Shown one piece after another: positions 20,355 through 41,101 of a stretch of 64,000 nt of DNA. Under the pieces are notes generated by a model that saw only the letters and a program-made list of their open reading frames with translations, did no database searches and was not told the origin of the DNA. The stretch covers positions 4,588,001-4,652,000 of the forward strand of contig NZ_JACCBB010000001.1 in assembly GCF_013409345.1 (NCBI RefSeq), read 5' to 3'. This stretch comes from Kineococcus aurantiacus (GTDB lineage: Bacteria > Actinomycetota > Actinomycetes > Actinomycetales > Kineococcaceae). Each line of letters starts with the position of its first letter. The first letter of the stretch is position 1. The position numbers and the translations under genes are program-made.

Positions 20355-21752
20355 TCAGGAGTCGAAACCCAGCCCCAGCCGGTCCAGCGTCCGCAGCCAG
20401 ACGTTGCGCTGACCCTCGTGCCGGTCGGCGTGGTCGAGCGACCGGGTGGTCACCTCGACCCCGCCCCACGCCAGGGGTTCGGGCGGGAACGGCACCGGCG
20501 GGGTCCGCACGAGCTCGAGTTCGGTGAGCTCGGTGGGGCCGTCTTCCGCGCGGGCCAGCAGGTCCAGGACGACGTCGGCCGCGAAGCGGGTCATCCCCAC
20601 GCCGAGACCGGTGTACCCGGCGACGTGCGCGACGCGGCCGCCGTGGCCGGTCCCGAAGAACGGGAAGAACCGCGTGCAGGTGTCGATCGCGCCACCCCAG
20701 GCGTGCGTGAACCGCACGCCCTCCAGTTGCGGGAACGTCTGCTGGAAGTGCGCGGCGAGCGTCCGGAACGAGTCGGGGTTCTGGTCGTACTCGGCCGACA
20801 GCCGCCGGCCGTAGTGGTAGACGGCGTCGTACCCGCCGAACAGGACCCGGTCGTCCGCCGTGCGCCGGTAGTAGTGGAAGCGGTTCCCCAGGTCCCCGAC
20901 GCCCTGCCGGTTCCGCCAGCCGATGGCCGCGAGCTGCGCGCCCGACAGGGGTTCGGTGACCAGGGCGTAGTCGTAGACGGGGATGGTGTGCCAGCGGTAG
21001 CGCGGCAGGAGCGATGGGAACACGTTGGTGCCCAGGGCGACGCGCCGGGCGCACACGTCCCCGCCGGGTGTCCGCAGGACGACGTCGCCGTCCGCCGAGG
21101 AGATGTGGCGCACCGGGGTGTGCTCGGCGATCCGCACGCCGAGCTCGAGGCACGTGCGCTTCAGCTCCCAGCACAGCCGCGCGGGGTTCACGAGGGCGGT
21201 GTCGTCCCGCGTCCACACCCCGGCCAGGTAGGTGGGGGAGTCGACCTGCGCCCGCACGGCGGCCGTGTCGAGGAACCCGGGTTCCCCCCGCAGCTGGTCG
21301 ACCTGATACGCCTCGGTGGCGACCGACAGACCGCCCGTGCGCTCGAAGTCGCAGTCCCACCCGTAGCGGGCCACGCTGTCCTGCAGACCGTCCAGGTTCG
21401 CCAGGCCGAGGGCGTCGAGCCGGTCCACCTCGCCGGGCAGGTGCAGTTCACCGTTGCTGCGGCCGTGGGTCAGGCTCGCGTCGATGAACCCGCCGTTGCG
21501 GCCGGAGGCGGCCCACCCGATCCAGGCGCCTTCGAGCAGCAGCACGTCGCGCCCCGGGTCGCGCTCCTTGGCGCGCAGGGCCGTCCACAGCCCGGTGAAC
21601 CCGCCGCCCACGACGGCGAGGTCGGTGCGGGTGCCGGTGATGAGGGGTGGTTCGGCGTCCGGCCGGCCGGGGTCGTCCAGCCAGAACGGGGTGCTCGCGA
21701 CGGCCCGCAGGGCGTCGTCGACGGCCGGTGATCTCGACGTGAGGAACGGCAC
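20355..21752 (-). CDS. FAD-dependent amine oxidoreductase (PuuB/DadA-like)
   Basis: DAO-superfamily flavoprotein of 465 residues, most like gamma-glutamylputrescine oxidoreductase and related amine oxidases. The FAD-binding fold begins with TDLAVVGGGFTGLWTALRA (about residue 40) and the family motif GWAASGRNGGFI follows at about 75. Near the C-terminus THAWGGAIDT and VAGYTGLGVGMTRFA close the FAD site. GTG at 21752 is chosen because a promoter -10 ends 7 bases upstream, so the mRNA would start at the codon itself; no Shine-Dalgarno is visible, consistent with that. It diverges from the Lrp/AsnC regulator and belongs functionally with the aminotransferase and the pot transporter. Confidence 0.85.
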   Translation of the reverse strand: MPFLTSRSPAVDDALRAVASTPFWLDDPGRPDAEPPLITGTRTDLAVVGGGFTGLWTALRAKERDPGRDVLLLEGAWIGWAASGRNGGFIDASLTHGRSNGELHLPGEVDRLDALGLANLDGLQDSVARYGWDCDFERTGGLSVATEAYQVDQLRGEPGFLDTAAVRAQVDSPTYLAGVWTRDDTALVNPARLCWELKRTCLELGVRIAEHTPVRHISSADGDVVLRTPGGDVCARRVALGTNVFPSLLPRYRWHTIPVYDYALVTEPLSGAQLAAIGWRNRQGVGDLGNRFHYYRRTADDRVLFGGYDAVYHYGRRLSAEYDQNPDSFRTLAAHFQQTFPQLEGVRFTHAWGGAIDTCTRFFPFFGTGHGGRVAHVAGYTGLGVGMTRFAADVVLDLLARAEDGPTELTELELVRTPPVPFPPEPLAWGGVEVTTRSLDHADRHEGQRNVWLRTLDRLGLGFDS

Positions 21753-22355: not shown

Positions 22356-23750
22356 ATGTCCAGCCTCCTCGCGAAGACCCCGCGCGGCACGGACCGTTCC
22401 GTGGCCGCCCGAGAGCACCTGTGGATGCACTTCACGCGGCACGCCCCCTTCGACGCCGGCGAGGAGGTGCCCGTCATCGTCCGCGGTGAGGGCGCCCGCA
22501 TCTGGGACCAGCACGGCCGGGAGTACCTCGACGGTCTCGCCGGCCTGTTCACCGTCCAGGTCGGCCACGGCCGCACCGAGCTGGCCGAGGCCGCGGCCCG
22601 GCAGGCCTCCACCCTGGGTTTCTTCCCGCTGTGGTCCTACGCCCACCCGGCCGCGATCGACCTCGCCGAGCGCCTGGCCCACGAGGCCCCGGGCGACCTG
22701 GACCGGGTGTTCTTCACCGGCAGCGGCAGCGAGGCCGTCGAGACGGCGTGGAAGCTCGCCAAGGCCTACTTCAAGCGCATCGGCAAACCCGGCAAGCACA
22801 AGGTCGTCAGCCGCTCCATCGCCTACCACGGGACCACCCACGGTGCGCTGTCCATCACCGGCATCCCGGGGGTGAAGGCCGACTTCGAACCCCTGGTCCC
22901 CGGGACGTTCCGCGCCCCCAACACCAACTCCTACCGGGCGCCGGAACACCTGCGCGAGGACCCCAAGGCGTTCGGCCGCTGGGCCGCCGACCGGGTCGGG
23001 GAGGCCATCGAGTTCGAGGGTCCCGACACCGTGGCCGCGGTCTTCGTCGAACCCGTCCAGAACGCCGGCGGCTGCTTCCCGCCGCCGCCGGGGTACTTCG
23101 AGCGACTGCGCGAGATCTGCGACGAGCTCGACGTCCTGCTCGTCAGCGACGAGACGATCTGCGCCTTCGGCCGCATCGGTGAGCTGTTCGCGTGCAAGGA
23201 CTTCGACTTCGTCCCGGACATCATCACGTGCGCAAAGGGGCTCACCAGCGGGTACTCCCCGCTGGGGGCGGTCATCGCCTCCCAGCGCCTGTTCGAGCCG
23301 TTCCGCGCGCCGGGGGAGGTGTTCGCGCACGGCTACACGTTCGGCGGCCACCCCGTCTCGGCGGCGGTCGCGATGGCCAACCTCGACATCTTCGAGCGCG
23401 AGGGCCTCGTCCAGCACGTGCACGAGAACGCCCCGCTGTTCCGCCGGGCGCTCGAGCGCCTGCTCGACCTGCCGATCGTCGGCGACGTCCGGGGGGCGGG
23501 GTTCTTCTACGGCATCGAGCTCGTCAAGGACCAGGCGACGCGGGAGACGTTCGACGAGGCCGAGTCCGAGCGCCTCCTGCGGGGTTTCCTCTCACCCGCG
23601 CTGTGGGAGGCGGGGCTGTACTGCCGCGCCGACGACCGCGGGGACCCGGTGATCCAGCTCGCGCCGCCGCTGGTCGTCGGTCCGCCGGAGTTCGACGACA
23701 TCGAGCAGCGGCTGCGGTCGGTGCTCGTCGAGGCGGGCCGGCTGCTGTGA
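22356..23750 (+). CDS. Class III aminotransferase (putrescine/polyamine--pyruvate type)
   Basis: PLP-dependent class III (omega) aminotransferase of 464 residues, probably removing an amino group from putrescine or a related diamine with pyruvate as acceptor (SpuC-like). Landmarks: [20 protein letters not shown] near residue 50, [17 protein letters not shown] (phosphate-binding turn), ISRAYHG-like [25 protein letters not shown] with the cofactor-pairing Asp, and the Schiff-base Lys in [22 protein letters not shown] at 22356 is preferred because of the promoter position. The stop overlaps the next FAD oxidoreductase by 4 bases. The exact amine substrate is inferred from the neighbouring spermidine/putrescine-type transporter. 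Confidence 0.88.
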
Positions 23751-25121
23751 CCGTGCGCTCGCTGTGGGAGGACACCGCGCCGCCGGGCCCCGCCCGCGAG
23801 CCGCTGGACGGGGACACCGAGGTCGACGTGTGCGTCGTCGGGGCCGGCTACACCGGTCTGTGGACGGCGTACCACGTCCTCGAGCACGACCCCGGAGCCT
23901 CCGTCCTGGTCGTCGAGGCCGAACGCGTCGGGTTCGGGGCGAGCGGCCGCAACGGCGGCTGGTGCTCGGCCCTGCTGCCCCAGGGGGAGTCCGCCCTGGC
24001 CGCCGAGCACGGTCCCGCGGCGGCCCGGGCCATGCGGGAGGCGATGCGCGCGACGATCGACGCGGTCGAGCGCGTCGTGGTCGCCGAGGGCATCGACTGC
24101 CACTTCCGCCGCGGCGGCACCGTCGTCGTGGCGCGCAGCGAGCCGCAGCTGGCCCGGGCCGTCGCCGAGGTCGCGGCCGACGAGCGCGCGGGGTCCCCGG
24201 AGCGGCTGCGCCTGCTGGACGCCGAGCAGACCCGCAAGACCGTCGGGATGACGCGCGCCCTGGGGGCGACGTACACCCCCGACTGCGCGCGCATCCACCC
24301 CCTGCGGCTCGCGCGCGGCCTGGCCGAGGCCGTGGAACGGCGCGGGGGGCGCATCGTCGAGGGCACGCGCGCCACGCAGGTGGCGGCCGGTCGCGTCCGC
24401 ACCGATCGCGGCACGGTCCGGGCCCGGCACGTGGTGCGGGCCACCGAGGCGTGGACGGCGACGACGGGCTCGCGCGAGGTCGTCCCGGTCTACTCCCTCA
24501 TGGTGGCCACCGAACCCCTGCCGGCCCGGTTCTGGGAGCAGGCCGGGCTCGAGAACGGGGAGACGTTCTCCGACCACCGGCACGTCGTCGTCTACGGCCA
24601 GCGGACCGCCGACGACCGGCTCGTGTTCGGCGGGCGCGGTGCCCCGTACCACTTCGGGTCCTCGATCCGGCCGGAGTTCGACGGGGACGAGGCGGTGTTC
24701 CGGAAGCTGCGGGCCACGCTGCGGGACCTGTTCCCGGCCGTCGCCGGTGCCCGGTTCACCCACGCCTGGGGCGGGCCGCTCGGCATCGCGCGCGACTGGC
24801 ACGCCGCGGTCCGGCACGACCCGGTGTCGGGCCTGGGCAGCGCCGGCGGCTACGTGGGCGACGGCGTCGGCACGGCCAACCTCGCGGGCCGGACCCTGGC
24901 GGCCAGCATCACCGGCGCCGACCCCGAGCTGCTGCGGCTGCCGTGGTTCGGCCACGTCCCGCCCCGGTGGGAGCCCGAGCCGCTGCGCTGGCTGGGCGTC
25001 AATGCCGGCCTGCTGGTCGCGCGGGCCGCCGACGCCGCCGAGGGCCGCCGACGCCGCCGAGACCGCCCTGGGCCGTCCGACGCCCCTGTCGAGCGCCCTG
25101 GCCCGGCTCACGGCGCACTGA
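23747..25121 (+). CDS. FAD-dependent amine oxidoreductase with frameshifted C-terminus
   Basis: DAO-family flavoprotein. [20 protein letters not shown] (about residue 27) binds [18 protein letters not shown] follows, and [10 protein letters not shown] with [14 protein letters not shown] closes the site. It is a paralogue of the FAD oxidoreductase at 20.4-21.75 kb. The gene is intact to about residue 426. There an exact 19-bp tandem duplication (25024-25061) shifts the frame. Without it the protein would end [20 protein letters not shown] and stop at 25119-25121; with it, translation runs on in frame, without a stop, into the amidohydrolase gene ending at 26950. Only the last 20 or so residues are altered, so the enzyme may still work. 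The GTG at 23747 overlaps the aminotransferase stop by 4 bases. Confidence 0.8.
25024..25061. repeat. Exact 19-bp tandem duplication causing a frameshift
   Basis: GGCCGCCGACGCCGCCGAG occurs twice back to back (25024-25042, 25043-25061). Since 19 is not a multiple of 3, it shifts the 3' end of the FAD oxidoreductase gene. Removing one copy restores a plausible C-terminus and stop. Confidence 0.9.
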
Positions 25122-25230
25122 GCCCCTCCCGTGGGTACTCGCCGTGGTGGCGTCCTCACGCGATCGGTCGGCCGGAGGCCGCTCGAGGGGCGGAACCCGT
25201 GGCGGCAACACGATGGAAACACCGAATCCG

Positions 25231-25259
25231 TTGTCACGGAGGCCATCCGCTTGTACCTT
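25231..25259 (+). promoter_or_regulatory. Internal promoter of the amidohydrolase-pot operon
   Basis: TTGTCA (25231-25236) and TACCTT (25254-25259) with a 17-base spacer; the -10 ends 8 bases before the ATG at 25268, so the transcript is nearly or fully leaderless. The -35 overlaps CGAATCCGTTGTCA (25223-25236), matching the motif at the two other promoters of the island. Confidence 0.55.
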
Positions 25260-25267
25260 CCGATGCC

Positions 25268-26950
25268 ATGAGCGGTACTGCGGACCTCGTCCTGCACTCC
25301 GGACGGGTTTTCACCGGGACCGGGTTGCACCCCTCGGCGACGGCGGTGGCCGTCAGCGACGGCCGCGTCGCCGCCGTCGGGACGGACGCCGAGCTCCGGT
25401 CCTGGACCGGGCCCGGCACCCGGACGGTGGACCTGGCGGGCCGGCTGGTCCTGCCCGGTTTCACCGACGCCCACGTCCACCCCGTCATGGGCGGCCTGGA
25501 ACGCCTGGGCTGCGACCTCAGCGAGGTCCACGGCGCGCAGGCCGCCCTGGACCGGGTCGCGGCCCACGCGGCGGCCCACCCCGGGGAGTGGGTCTCCGGC
25601 GGGGGCTGGTCGATGGCCGACTTCCCCGGCGGCACCCCCCGTCGCGAGGACCTCGACCGCGTCGTGCCGGACCGGCCGGTGTTCCTGCTGAACCGCGACC
25701 ACCACGGCGCGTGGGCCAACAGCCGGGCCCTGGAGCTGGCCGGGGTCGACGCGCGGACCCCCGACCCCGTCGACGGCCGGATCGAGCGCGACCCCGACGG
25801 CACCCCGACCGGCACGCTGCACGAGGGCGCGATGGACCTCGTCAGCCGCCTGCTGCCACCGGTCACCCCGGCCGACCTCGCGGCCGGGCTGGCCGAGGGG
25901 CAGCGGTACCTGCACTCCGTGGGCGTCACCGGCTGGCAGGACGCCATCGTCGGCGCCTACGCCGGCCACTCCGACACCACGCCGGTCTACCTGGACGCGG
26001 TGGCCGCCGGCACCCTCACCGCCCGCGTCGTCGGCGCCCTGTGGTGGCCGCGCGGCCGGACGGCCGAGGAGGTCGACGACGTCGTCGCCGGGTTCGTCGC
26101 CCACCGCGAGCGGGTCGCGGCGGCCGGCTCGGACCGCTTCCGGACCACGAGCGTCAAGATCATGCTCGACGGGGTCGCGGAGAACCGGACCGCCTCGATG
26201 CTCACGCCGTACCTCGACGGCTGCGGCTGCAGCTCGGGGGAGACGGGCCTGTCCTACCTGGACCGCGACCTGCTGCTGGCCGCCGTGCCCGCGCTGGACG
26301 CGGCGGGCTTCGACGTCCACGTGCACGTCATCGGCGACCGCGCCGTGCGCGACGCCCTCGACGCCGTCGCCCTGGCGCGGCGGTCCCCCGCCTCCCGCGG
26401 CGGCCGGCACCACCTGGCGCACCTGCAGGTCGTCCACCCCGACGACGTGCCCCGGTTCGCCGCGCTCGACGTCACCGCCAACGCCCAGGCGCTGTGGGCC
26501 TGCGAGGAGGAGCAGATGACCGCGTTGACCACACCCCTGCTGGGACCGGAGCGGAACTCCTGGCAGTACCCGTTCGGGGGGCTGCTGCGGACCGGGGCGC
26601 GCCTGGTCATGGGGTCGGACTGGCCGGTGTCCACCCCCGACCCGTGGCAGGCCGTCCACGTCGCCGTCAACCGCACCCCGCCGGGCGTCGACGCCCGCCC
26701 CTTCGGCCCCGAGCACGCGCTGACCCTCACCGAGGCCCTGCACGCGTACACCGCCGGATCGGCCTGGATCAACCGGCACGACGACGCCGGCACGCTCACC
26801 GCGGGAGCCGTCGCCGACCTCGCCGTCGCCAGCGTCGACCCCTACTCCGTGGAACCGCGGGACCTGCACCGGGTGCGGACCGACCTGACCCTCGTCGCCG
26901 GGACCCCGGTCCACGAGGCGTCGACGGACCTGGCGGGGGTGGGACGGTGA
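25268..26950 (+). CDS. Amidohydrolase family 3 protein (YtcJ-like)
   Basis: Metal-dependent amidohydrolase of 560 residues. The metal-binding pair is in [15 protein letters not shown] (about residue 67); further ligand segments are KIMLDGVAE (Lys, possibly carboxylated), [16 protein letters not shown] (His), [13 protein letters not shown] (His) and [13 protein letters not shown] (Asp). This is the full set for the YtcJ/NfdA branch, which cleaves amide or formamide bonds. The ATG at 25268 has its own promoter. The frame is open upstream into the preceding gene because of the 19-bp duplication. It may hydrolyse an acylated or formylated polyamine intermediate, which is inference from context. 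Its stop overlaps potA by 4 bases. Confidence 0.85.
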
Positions 26951-35053: not shown

Positions 35054-37932
35054 CCCCCACCACCCCTGGCGCCGGCACGCGCCCCGGGTTCCGCACCGGG
35101 ACCGGTGGGCGCGTCGACCGCTCCCGCACGATCACCTTCACCTTCGAGGGCCGGACCCACGAGGGCCACCCCGGTGACACCCTCGCCTCGGCGCTGCTGG
35201 CCGGCGGCCGGCACCAGGTCGGCACCAGCATCAAGCTGGGCCGGCCCCGCGGGATCGGCGCCGCCTGGGCCGAGGACCCCGGCGGCCTGGTCCAGGTCGA
35301 GGAACCCTTCCCCGAGCCCATGCTGCTGGCCAGCACCCTGGAGCTGTTCGACGGGCTGTCCGCCCACGGCCTGCCGGGCCAGGGCCGGCTCGCCGAGGTC
35401 GCCGACACCGCCCGCTACGACTCCCGGCACCTGCACGTCGACGTCCTCGTCGTCGGGGCCGGTCCGGCCGGTCTGCAGGCCGCGCTCACCGCGGCCCGCG
35501 CCGGGGCCCGGGTGGCCCTCGTCGACGAGCAGTCCGAGGCCGGGGGGACGCTGCTGGGTTCCACCGACGTCCTCGGCGGCGCCCCGGCGCTGGAGTGGGT
35601 CGCCGGGGCCGTCGCCGAACTGCGCGCGCACCCCGACGTCACCCACCTGCAGCGGACCACGGCCTTCGGCGTCTACGACGACGGTTTCGTCCTGGCCGTC
35701 GAGCGTCGCACCGACCACCTGGGCACCGCGGCGCCGCAGAACCTCTCGCGCCAGCGGGTGTGGCGCGTGCGCGCCGAGCACGTCGTCGTCGCGACCGGCG
35801 CGCACGAACGTCCCGTCGTGTTCACCGACAACGACCGCCCCGGCACGATGCTGGCCGGTGCGGCGCGCACCTACCTGCACCGCTACGGCGTCCTCGCCGG
35901 GACCCGCGCGGTGGTGTTCACCACCAACGACAGCGCCTACGCCGCCGCCGTCGACCTCGCCGACGCCGGCGTCGAGGTCGCCGCGGTCGTCGAGGTCCGC
36001 CCGACGGTGCCCTCCCGGTGGGCCGGCGAGCTGACCCGCCGCGGCATCCCCGTGCGCACCGGCTCCGTCGTGACCGGGACCCGGGGCGAGGAGAGGGTGA
36101 GCGCAGCCCTCGTCGCCCCGCTGGAGGCCCCCGCGGCCCCCACCGAGACGCTGGACTGCGACCTGCTGCTGGTCAGCGGCGGCTGGAACCCGGCCGTCCA
36201 CCTGTTCAGCCAGGCCCGCGGCCGGTTGCGCTTCGACGCCGCCCTGGGCGCCTTCGTGCCGGCGGAGGCGGTCCGCGGCATGACCGTCACCGGTTCCGCC
36301 GCCGGCACCTTCGACCTCGCCGCGGTGCTGACCGGCGCGCACGAGGCGGCCGGCGCCGTCCTGTCCAGCCTCGGCCTGGACCCCGGCCGCCTCGCGACGC
36401 CGCCGGTGGCCACCTTCGGACCCACCGGCGACGCCCCGGCACTGCTGTGGCGGGTGGAGGGGCCGCCGGAGCGGCAGTTCGTCGACGTCCAACGCGACGC
36501 GACCGTCGCCGACATCGCCCGTGCCGTCGGCGCGGGGCTGCGCTCGCCCGAGCACGTCAAGCGGTACACGACCATCGGCACCGCCCACGACCAGGGCAAG
36601 ACCTCGGGCATCGTCGCCGCCGGCGTCCTCGGTGAGCTCCTGGGACGCGGCCCCGAGGCCGTGGGGACCACGACCTTCCGCCCGCCCTACACCCCCGTCG
36701 CGTTCGCGACCCTGGCCGGGCAGGACCGGGGCCGGTTGTTCGACCCCGAGCGCACCACCGCGGTGCACGACTGGCACGTCCAGCACGGCGCCGTCTTCGA
36801 GGACGTCGGGCAGTGGAAGCGTCCCCGGTACTACCCGCGGCCGGGGGAGGACCTGGAGGCGGCGGTCCTGCGCGAGTGCGCCGCCGTTCGCACCGGCGTC
36901 GGCATCATGGACGGTTCCACGCTGGGCAAGATCGACGTGCAGGGCCCGGACGCGGGGGAGTTCCTCGACCGGCTCTACACCAACGTCATGAGCTCGCTGC
37001 CGGTGGGCCGGATCCGCTACGGCGTCATGTGCGCCGCCGACGGGATGGTCCTCGACGACGGCACCGTGCTGCGCATCGCGCAGGACCGCTACACCGTCAC
37101 CACCACCACCGGCGGGGCGGCGAAGGTCCTGGACTGGATGGAGGAGTGGCTGCAGACCGAGTGGCCGCACCTGCGGGTCCACCTGGCCTCGGTCACCGAG
37201 CAGTGGGCCGCGTTCCCCGTGGCGGGACCGGCGTCGCGCGCCCTCGTCGGCGCGGTGTTCCCCGACGTCGACGTCAGCAACGAGGCGTTCCCCTTCATGA
37301 CGTGGCAGGACACCACCCTCGGCGGCGTCCCGGTCCGGCTGGCGCGCATCAGCTTCTCCGGCGAACTCGCGTGGGAGGTGCACGTGAACGCGTGGTTCGC
37401 GACGGCCGTCTGGGAGCGCCTGGTCGCCGCCGGCCGCGAGCACGGCCTCACCCCCTACGGCACCGAGACCATGCACGTCCTGCGCGCGGAGAAGGGCTAC
37501 CCGATCATCGGGCAGGACACCGACGGCACCGTGACCCCGCAGGACCTCGGGATGTCGTGGGTGGTGTCGAAGAAGAAGCCCGACTTCGTCGGCAAGCGCT
37601 CCTTCGCCCGCGCCGACAACCAGCGCCCCGACCGCAAGCAGCTCGTCGGGCTCCTGCCGGTGGACCGGGACACCGTCCTGCCGGAGGGCTCGCAGCTCAT
37701 CGCGTTCCAGGACGACGGGCGACTCCCGCCGCCGCCGGTGCCGATGCTCGGGCACGTCACGTCCAGCTACCGCAGCGCGTTCCTCGAACGGCCCTTCGCG
37801 CTCGCCCTGCTCGCCGGCGGTGCGTCCCGGCACGGGCAGACGCTCCACGTCCCGGTCGGTGACCGCCTCGTGGCCGTCGAGGTCACTGGTCCCGTCCTCG
37901 TCGACCCCGAAGGAGCGCGCCGCGATGGCTGA
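35050..37932 (+). CDS. soxA: Sarcosine oxidase subunit alpha
   Basis: Largest subunit, 960 residues (family about 965). The N-terminal 2Fe-2S-ferredoxin-like fold (FTFEGRTHEGHPGDTLASAL) lacks cluster cysteines, as usual in SoxA. The NAD-binding domain follows with VDVLVVGAGPAGLQAALTAA at about residue 136. From about residue 560 comes the folate-binding GcvT-like domain, with GIMDGSTLGKIDVQGPDAG and TMHVLRAEKGYPIIGQDTDG. The GcvT part transfers the methyl-derived carbon to tetrahydrofolate. The GTG overlaps the soxD stop, and the stop lies inside the start of soxG. Confidence 0.95.
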   Translation: MTPTTPGAGTRPGFRTGTGGRVDRSRTITFTFEGRTHEGHPGDTLASALLAGGRHQVGTSIKLGRPRGIGAAWAEDPGGLVQVEEPFPEPMLLASTLELFDGLSAHGLPGQGRLAEVADTARYDSRHLHVDVLVVGAGPAGLQAALTAARAGARVALVDEQSEAGGTLLGSTDVLGGAPALEWVAGAVAELRAHPDVTHLQRTTAFGVYDDGFVLAVERRTDHLGTAAPQNLSRQRVWRVRAEHVVVATGAHERPVVFTDNDRPGTMLAGAARTYLHRYGVLAGTRAVVFTTNDSAYAAAVDLADAGVEVAAVVEVRPTVPSRWAGELTRRGIPVRTGSVVTGTRGEERVSAALVAPLEAPAAPTETLDCDLLLVSGGWNPAVHLFSQARGRLRFDAALGAFVPAEAVRGMTVTGSAAGTFDLAAVLTGAHEAAGAVLSSLGLDPGRLATPPVATFGPTGDAPALLWRVEGPPERQFVDVQRDATVADIARAVGAGLRSPEHVKRYTTIGTAHDQGKTSGIVAAGVLGELLGRGPEAVGTTTFRPPYTPVAFATLAGQDRGRLFDPERTTAVHDWHVQHGAVFEDVGQWKRPRYYPRPGEDLEAAVLRECAAVRTGVGIMDGSTLGKIDVQGPDAGEFLDRLYTNVMSSLPVGRIRYGVMCAADGMVLDDGTVLRIAQDRYTVTTTTGGAAKVLDWMEEWLQTEWPHLRVHLASVTEQWAAFPVAGPASRALVGAVFPDVDVSNEAFPFMTWQDTTLGGVPVRLARISFSGELAWEVHVNAWFATAVWERLVAAGREHGLTPYGTETMHVLRAEKGYPIIGQDTDGTVTPQDLGMSWVVSKKKPDFVGKRSFARADNQRPDRKQLVGLLPVDRDTVLPEGSQLIAFQDDGRLPPPPVPMLGHVTSSYRSAFLERPFALALLAGGASRHGQTLHVPVGDRLVAVEVTGPVLVDPEGARRDG

Positions 37933-38524
37933 CACCCCGGGAGCGGTCCTGCCCCGCACCCACCCGCTGGCCGACCGCACCGAGCTGACCGCGCTGACCG
38001 GTGGGCTCGTCACCCCCCGCCCGAACCTGTCGTCGGTCCTGGTCCGGGCCCTCCCGGGAGGACCCGCCGCCGCGGCCGCGGCGCAGGTCCTGGGCGCCGC
38101 GCTCCCGGTGCGCGCGAACACCTGGGTCGCCACCGAGCGGGGCAAGGTCGTCTGGCTCGGGCCCGACGAGTGGCTCGTCCTGGACGACACCACCGAGCCG
38201 TGGGTCCTGGAGGACCGGCTGCGGTCGGTGCTGGCCCCGCTCGGCGGGGCCGCCACCGACGTCTCGGCGCAGCGCACCTGCCTGCGCCTGCACGGCCCGC
38301 ACGCCGAGGAGGTGCTGCGCGCGGGGTGCTCCCTGGACGTGCACCCGCGGGTCTTCGGCCCGGGGTCGGCGGCGCAGGTGAACCTCGCGCGGGCAGGGGT
38401 CGTCCTGCTGGCCCTGGCCGCCACCGGCGACGACTTCGAGGTCCTGGTCCGCAGCTCGTTCGCGGGCTACCTGGCGGCGTGGCTGATCGACACCGCGCTG
38501 GAGTTCGGGCCCCACCCGTCCTGA
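37925..38524 (+). CDS. soxG: Sarcosine oxidase subunit gamma
   Basis: Gamma subunit, 199 residues, with the GcvT-like half fold typical of SoxG: LPVRANTWVATERGKVVWLG, PDEWLVLDD and ATDVSAQRTCLRLHGPHAEE. The ATG at 37925 lies 8 bases inside the soxA gene; no other start gives the family N-terminus. It is the last gene before a short repeat-bearing gap leading to the dimethylglycine oxidase gene. Confidence 0.9.
   Translation: MADTPGAVLPRTHPLADRTELTALTGGLVTPRPNLSSVLVRALPGGPAAAAAAQVLGAALPVRANTWVATERGKVVWLGPDEWLVLDDTTEPWVLEDRLRSVLAPLGGAATDVSAQRTCLRLHGPHAEEVLRAGCSLDVHPRVFGPGSAAQVNLARAGVVLLALAATGDDFEVLVRSSFAGYLAAWLIDTALEFGPHPS

Positions 38525-41101
<2,577 letters not shown>

Follow-up and report, generated by a model that had tools for sequence, protein, structure and literature searches.

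Short tandem duplications that alter a protein have been described in Xenorhabdus, where three spontaneous duplications of 26-116 bp were reported in lrp and a heading by the authors terms the lrp mutations not reversible (PMC6786866). Phase-variable tandem repeats have been reported in M. tuberculosis (PMC12817950). The repeat analyzed here is located in a stretch of 64,000 nucleotides (the window) from the genome of a soil-type actinobacterium, Kineococcus (5.03 Mb, 2 contigs, completeness 99.99), inside a gene for an FAD-dependent oxidoreductase. Like the lrp duplications (PMC6786866), it is short, consists of adjacent copies within a coding gene and changes the protein sequence beyond it; unlike them, its new frame meets no early stop and enters the next gene. 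It shares with the phase-variable bacterial repeats (PMC12817950) a tandem copy number that can alter the reading frame, but it has only two copies and is found in one genome. A literature search returned no paper joining FAD-dependent oxidoreductase, amidohydrolase, fusion protein and polyamine.

The oxidoreductase matches Pfam PF01266 at residues 27-386 over profile positions 1-352 of 353, which is the full domain and places the protein in the DAO family. Among the matches listed, the nearest solved chains are the sarcosine oxidase beta subunit and glycine oxidase, both of this same family, and the 50 solved chains listed share 14-24% identity with the K. siccus orthologue. In comparison with the sarcosine oxidase beta subunit and glycine oxidase, the window copy has a replaced C-terminus. 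The genes of the cluster are arranged in the order aminotransferase, FAD-dependent oxidoreductase and amidohydrolase, and the GTG start of the oxidoreductase at 23747 overlaps the stop of the preceding aminotransferase gene. The aminotransferase gene scores above its NCBIfam cut-off, a nearby gene for a polyamine-type ABC transporter ATPase is just above the potA cut-off, and another nearby gene resembles Lrp/AsnC-type regulators with a score below the NCBIfam cut-offs. The same cluster includes a second FAD oxidoreductase, 35% identical to the first, on the minus strand (20406-21686); five other genomes of the genus (G001, G003, G006, G007 and G009) also have a paralogue in the opposite orientation, no more than a few kb away. 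The features discussed below are collected in Table 1.

Table 1. Features of the oxidoreductase-amidohydrolase region, in window coordinates
Feature	Coordinates	Strand	Basis or remarks
FAD-dependent oxidoreductase (DAO family) body to end of repeat	23747..25061	+	PF01266; one-copy orthologues in six same-genus genomes
19-bp unit, copy 1	25023..25041	+	Encodes end of conserved helix ..RAADAAE; TRF
19-bp unit, copy 2	25042..25060	+	Exact run goes on 1 base, to 25061
Remnant of ancestral 3' end, out of frame now	25062..25121	+	Matches C-termini of G001, G003, G009
Spacer, open in shifted frame	25122..25267	+	Third-position G+C 0.58 (48 codons)
Promoter-like block GGCAACACGAT..CGAATCCGTTGTC..TTGTACCTT before amidohydrolase ATG	25203..25267	+	Relatives' alignment; putative role
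Amidohydrolase (Amidohydro_3), complete, 560 residues	25268..26950	+	PF07969 profile positions 1-472 of 472

Exactness and rarity of the 19-bp repeat

The maximal exact tandem run, 25023-25061, consists of two copies of the 19-bp unit GGGCCGCCGACGCCGCCGA plus one base, and TRF reported a period of 19, 2.1 copies and 100% match. The exact 19-bp tandem duplication noticed in a preliminary description of this DNA was thus confirmed, the true run being one base longer than claimed. The two copies are indistinguishable as to which is the extra one. They lie inside the oxidoreductase gene, 60 bases 5' of the ancestral stop, in a G+C-rich and internally repetitive site, GCCGCCGAC GCCGCCGAG, that encodes AADAAE. 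The unit is not a multiple of three (19 mod 3 = 1) and produces a +1 frameshift, so that the repeat has these features of a frameshifting short tandem duplication: adjacent exact copies, a length that is not a multiple of three and a location inside a coding gene.

The repeat is beyond chance, because a random 4-Mb sequence generated by a 6-base-context Markov model of the genome had no exact tandem unit longer than 13 when units of 10-40 were scanned. The 18-base core, with one mismatch permitted, occurs in the window only at these two copies and was absent from 100 shuffles. Repeats of this kind are a normal feature of this genome, since 16 exact tandem repeats with units of at least 13 (two of them overlapping) were found in 800 kb sampled from it; three of the 16 have units of at least 19 (24, 26 and 30). 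The possibility that the genome is rich in frame-breaking repeats was considered and rejected: 10 of the 12 sampled repeats with a unit that is not a multiple of three are at gene ends, defined as a flanking coding-phase frame that ends inside the repeat or no more than 40 bases from it. These calls were based on third-position G+C and stop codons, without gene annotation, and the two remaining repeats (L124 10436 and L142 19760) received no gene-end call. Some repeats of 10-11 bases keep the codon phase on both sides, e.g., L127 14714 and L156 8828. A frameshifting repeat inside a gene and with no nearby stop is less usual, and the one in the window is itself only 60 bases before the ancestral stop.

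Other tandem elements were observed in the same genome. A 13-bp unit, ACCCAGCGCGAGA, is present in three exact copies at 38524-38562 of the window; the first base of this triple is also the final base of the TGA that closes the open frame 37820-38524, and the triple is located between this stop and a frame that begins at 38633. A tandem 16-bp element, its core GTGATCGAGCACTCC found in 2 of 179 loci, is present at more than one place in this genome: at L128 7361-7395 and L143 4477-4515 the sites look, by codon phase, like gaps at gene ends, and a related unit is on the other strand at L132 11163-11213.

Ancestral state in related genomes

Ten other genomes of the genus, one per species, were searched, and an orthologue with 71-94% protein identity was found in six of them. 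In G002, G004 and G008 nothing matched at E 1e-40, and the only related gene of G005 is a 35% paralogue rather than an orthologue. The comparison of the junction proposed in the preliminary description indicates that a single copy is ancestral: the 19-bp unit is present once in all six same-genus orthologues, while the two-copy string was found in 1 of the 11 genus genomes, the window's own. The five orthologues whose contig reaches the gene end stop 19 codons past AADAAE, with the ending ...LTAH or ...LTGH; the contig of G010 runs out before the end of the gene.

A wider scan confirmed at least 581 stretches encoding relatives, and the best 80, mostly actinobacterial by title, were kept; one of these, the K. 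siccus contig L038, duplicates that of G007 and so adds no independent evidence. Among the best 80 of at least 581 loci, 78 have a stop 13-32 codons past the matched region, and two (L083 and L116) run off their contigs. No extension beyond the usual stop was found among the 78 loci with a visible stop within this best 80 of at least 581. When 59 genomes of the order were searched, the enzyme was found in 20, and no stops occurred within the 22 order-wide matches. The duplication is derived, and private on present data, because the unit is single in the genus orthologues and the usual stop is found in 78 of the 80 wider loci. The identity of the two copies fits a recent event.

The altered C-terminus of the oxidoreductase

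The preliminary description stated that with one copy the protein ends naturally at 25121, and the stop of the single-copy sequence is indeed the TGA at 25119-25121. With two copies the last 19 residues of the oxidoreductase are replaced, and the ancestral end, ...LTAH, is gone. When the window was aligned with 36 loci from the best 80, the last invariant residues were D429 and E432; they are in or at the edge of copy 1, and both are retained. Within the lost stretch, the position equivalent to residue 474 of the K. siccus protein is Gly in 90% or more of these 36 loci, although the window's remnant shares an Ala there with G001, G003 and G009. The K. siccus orthologue was modeled with a mean pLDDT of 86.9 and ends in helices 437-459 and 464-472, a block with pLDDT of 68-92; the equivalents of the lost residues are a loop and the short last helix (464-472). 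For the window frame, the prediction keeps helix 413-434, and residues 438-507 have pLDDT below 50, without structure; the new tail of the shifted frame is thus predicted to be disordered.

Private amino acid changes in the oxidoreductase body number 6 in the window genome, 2 in G001 and 6 in G003; the window genome had a raw count of 8, from which two changes, at residues 435 and 438, were dropped because they fall in the shifted tail. The body is, as judged from these counts, constrained and evolving normally, with no excess of amino acid changes. The lack of an excess would mean that the event is recent or nearly harmless, or that it is an assembly error, and normal evolution of the body that the gene is still working or was hit recently. 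Three of the 78 loci with a visible stop among the best 80 of at least 581 (L055, L082 and L108) have a shorter tail; therefore, the enzyme has no strict need of the tail, and its replacement may have no functional effect. The oxidoreductase is probably at most mildly affected by its new tail.

These observations are probably best explained by a recent, lineage-private frameshifting duplication of 19 bp whose fusion frame is incidental. The duplication would have struck a G+C-rich and internally repetitive stretch near the 3' end of a gene for an FAD-dependent amine/amino-acid oxidoreductase, causing a +1 shift. The DAO domain would be retained in full, as would the long conserved helix, while an unstructured tail would take the place of the last 19 residues, which include the short helix at the end and the terminal ...LTAH. 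Out-of-frame stops are few in the G+C-rich DNA of this region, so that translation could continue through the spacer into the amidohydrolase, which would be in that frame by chance; any fusion product would be incidental, and the amidohydrolase would still be produced from its own start.

An oxidoreductase body without sign of decay would also be found if the second copy were an assembly or consensus error, the organism having one copy and a normal enzyme. Such an error would agree with the lack of the extra copy in the six relatives that have the gene and with the G+C-rich, internally repetitive nature of the stretch. However, this reading is unlikely, and less probable than a real duplication: the assembly is near closed, with 2 contigs and a completeness of 99.99, and nearly full-length family matches were obtained for the aminotransferase, amidohydrolase and transporter ATPase genes that flank the site. 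Furthermore, other exact tandem repeats with units of at least 13 are spread across the same genome, and the location of 10 of 12 frame-changing repeats at gene ends points to selection acting on real repeats, unlike random errors. We infer that the duplication is present in the organism and not merely in the assembly.

The fusion frame and the amidohydrolase

The frame that starts at GTG 23747 has 1067 codons and ends at 26950, with both domains whole. These reading frames agree with the preliminary description, in which the second copy changes the frame and leaves it open through about 150 bases of spacer and the whole amidohydrolase as a potential 1067-residue protein; the spacer between the old stop and ATG 25268 measures 146 bases. 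Past the site, the ancestral frame has 19 codons left before its stop, and the other two frames are open for 629 and 1010 codons. Three of the six frames over 23747-26950 have no internal stop. The openness of the frame is a by-product of the G+C-rich composition, expected here, because both shifted frames stay open (629 and 1010 codons). The same +1 shift in relatives stops after 54 codons in G003, 80 in G009 and 24 in both G007 and G006; in G001 it meets no stop in the 613 codons up to where the available locus ends, yet this is not the frame in which the amidohydrolase is read. The +1 shift thus brings the amidohydrolase in frame in none of five relatives, and a +2 shift, not +1 as here, would give an in-frame fusion reading only in G003 among these five. 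On these comparisons the fusion frame looks accidental.

The open 1067-codon frame with its two whole domains could be taken for a bifunctional oxidoreductase-amidohydrolase in which an intermediate of the amine-catabolic cluster is channeled, the more so as the genes adjoin in one cluster with the aminotransferase and the polyamine-type ABC transporter ATPase. No terminator-like site was found in 25000-25400; both genes could therefore share one message, from which the fusion might be translated. Nonetheless, a functional fusion is improbable. The linker is predicted to be disordered, and third-position G+C in the fused frame falls from 0.97 in the oxidoreductase to 0.58 in the spacer before returning to 0.975 in the amidohydrolase, so that the linker has no coding signature. 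No fused relative was found among the genus orthologues or the best 80 of at least 581 loci, and the same shift misses the amidohydrolase frame in five of five relatives. The fusion as a meaningful form was thus unsupported, with both shifted frames open, the amidohydrolase in frame in 0/5 relatives and residues 438-507 predicted to be disordered.

A reversible switch, in which slippage between two copies and one would toggle a free and a fused (or altered) oxidoreductase, is highly improbable: slippage or recombination can delete a copy from an exact adjacent pair, but there are just two copies in one genome and one copy in six of six relatives, and catabolic enzymes are not, to our knowledge, usual switch targets. 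As for precedents, phase-variable tandem repeats reported in M. tuberculosis favor a switch (PMC12817950), and the heading of the Xenorhabdus report that terms the lrp mutations not reversible speaks against it (PMC6786866). The least credible form of this idea, in which one copy gives two separate enzymes and two copies give the bifunctional oxidoreductase-amidohydrolase alongside free amidohydrolase initiated at its own start, has the repeat itself as the sole point in favor of a copy-number switch; if true, it would mean metabolic heterogeneity through slippage in a G+C-rich genome with scarce out-of-frame stops.

If the duplication is real and its fusion frame incidental, as we favor, the locus would be a clean natural case of a small frameshifting duplication that, given a very high G+C content, leaves a frame open straight into the neighbor gene. 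Frameshifting duplications in G+C-rich DNA may be a raw route to gene fusions. Caution is also needed, as a gene caller is likely to report here a 1067-residue two-domain protein absent from the examined relatives.

The preliminary description also gave the amidohydrolase its own promoter. A strict sigma-70 consensus scan found no promoter in 25000-25400, which leaves that part of the claim without a match to the consensus, while the block before the ATG did prove to be conserved in relatives. Upstream of ATG 25268, GGCAACACGAT, CGAATCCGTTGT and TTGTAC(C/G)TT, the last placed 7-8 bases 5' of the ATG, are strongly conserved in G001, G003 and G009. The block 25203-25267 is presumably a promoter with a -10 of the TANNNT type and a leaderless message, as judged from the general features of actinobacterial promoters. 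The conserved block before the ATG suggests that the amidohydrolase may be expressed separately.

Two minor observations concern the same region and its gene family. The block 25203-25267 has a partial dyad symmetry, CAACACGAT .. ATCCGTTG, and could combine an operator with a leaderless promoter; as a regulator site, its core has no second copy in the window. A distant paralogue of the amidohydrolase, with 39% identity and one TGA inside the reading, is located at G007:C333:47662-49302.
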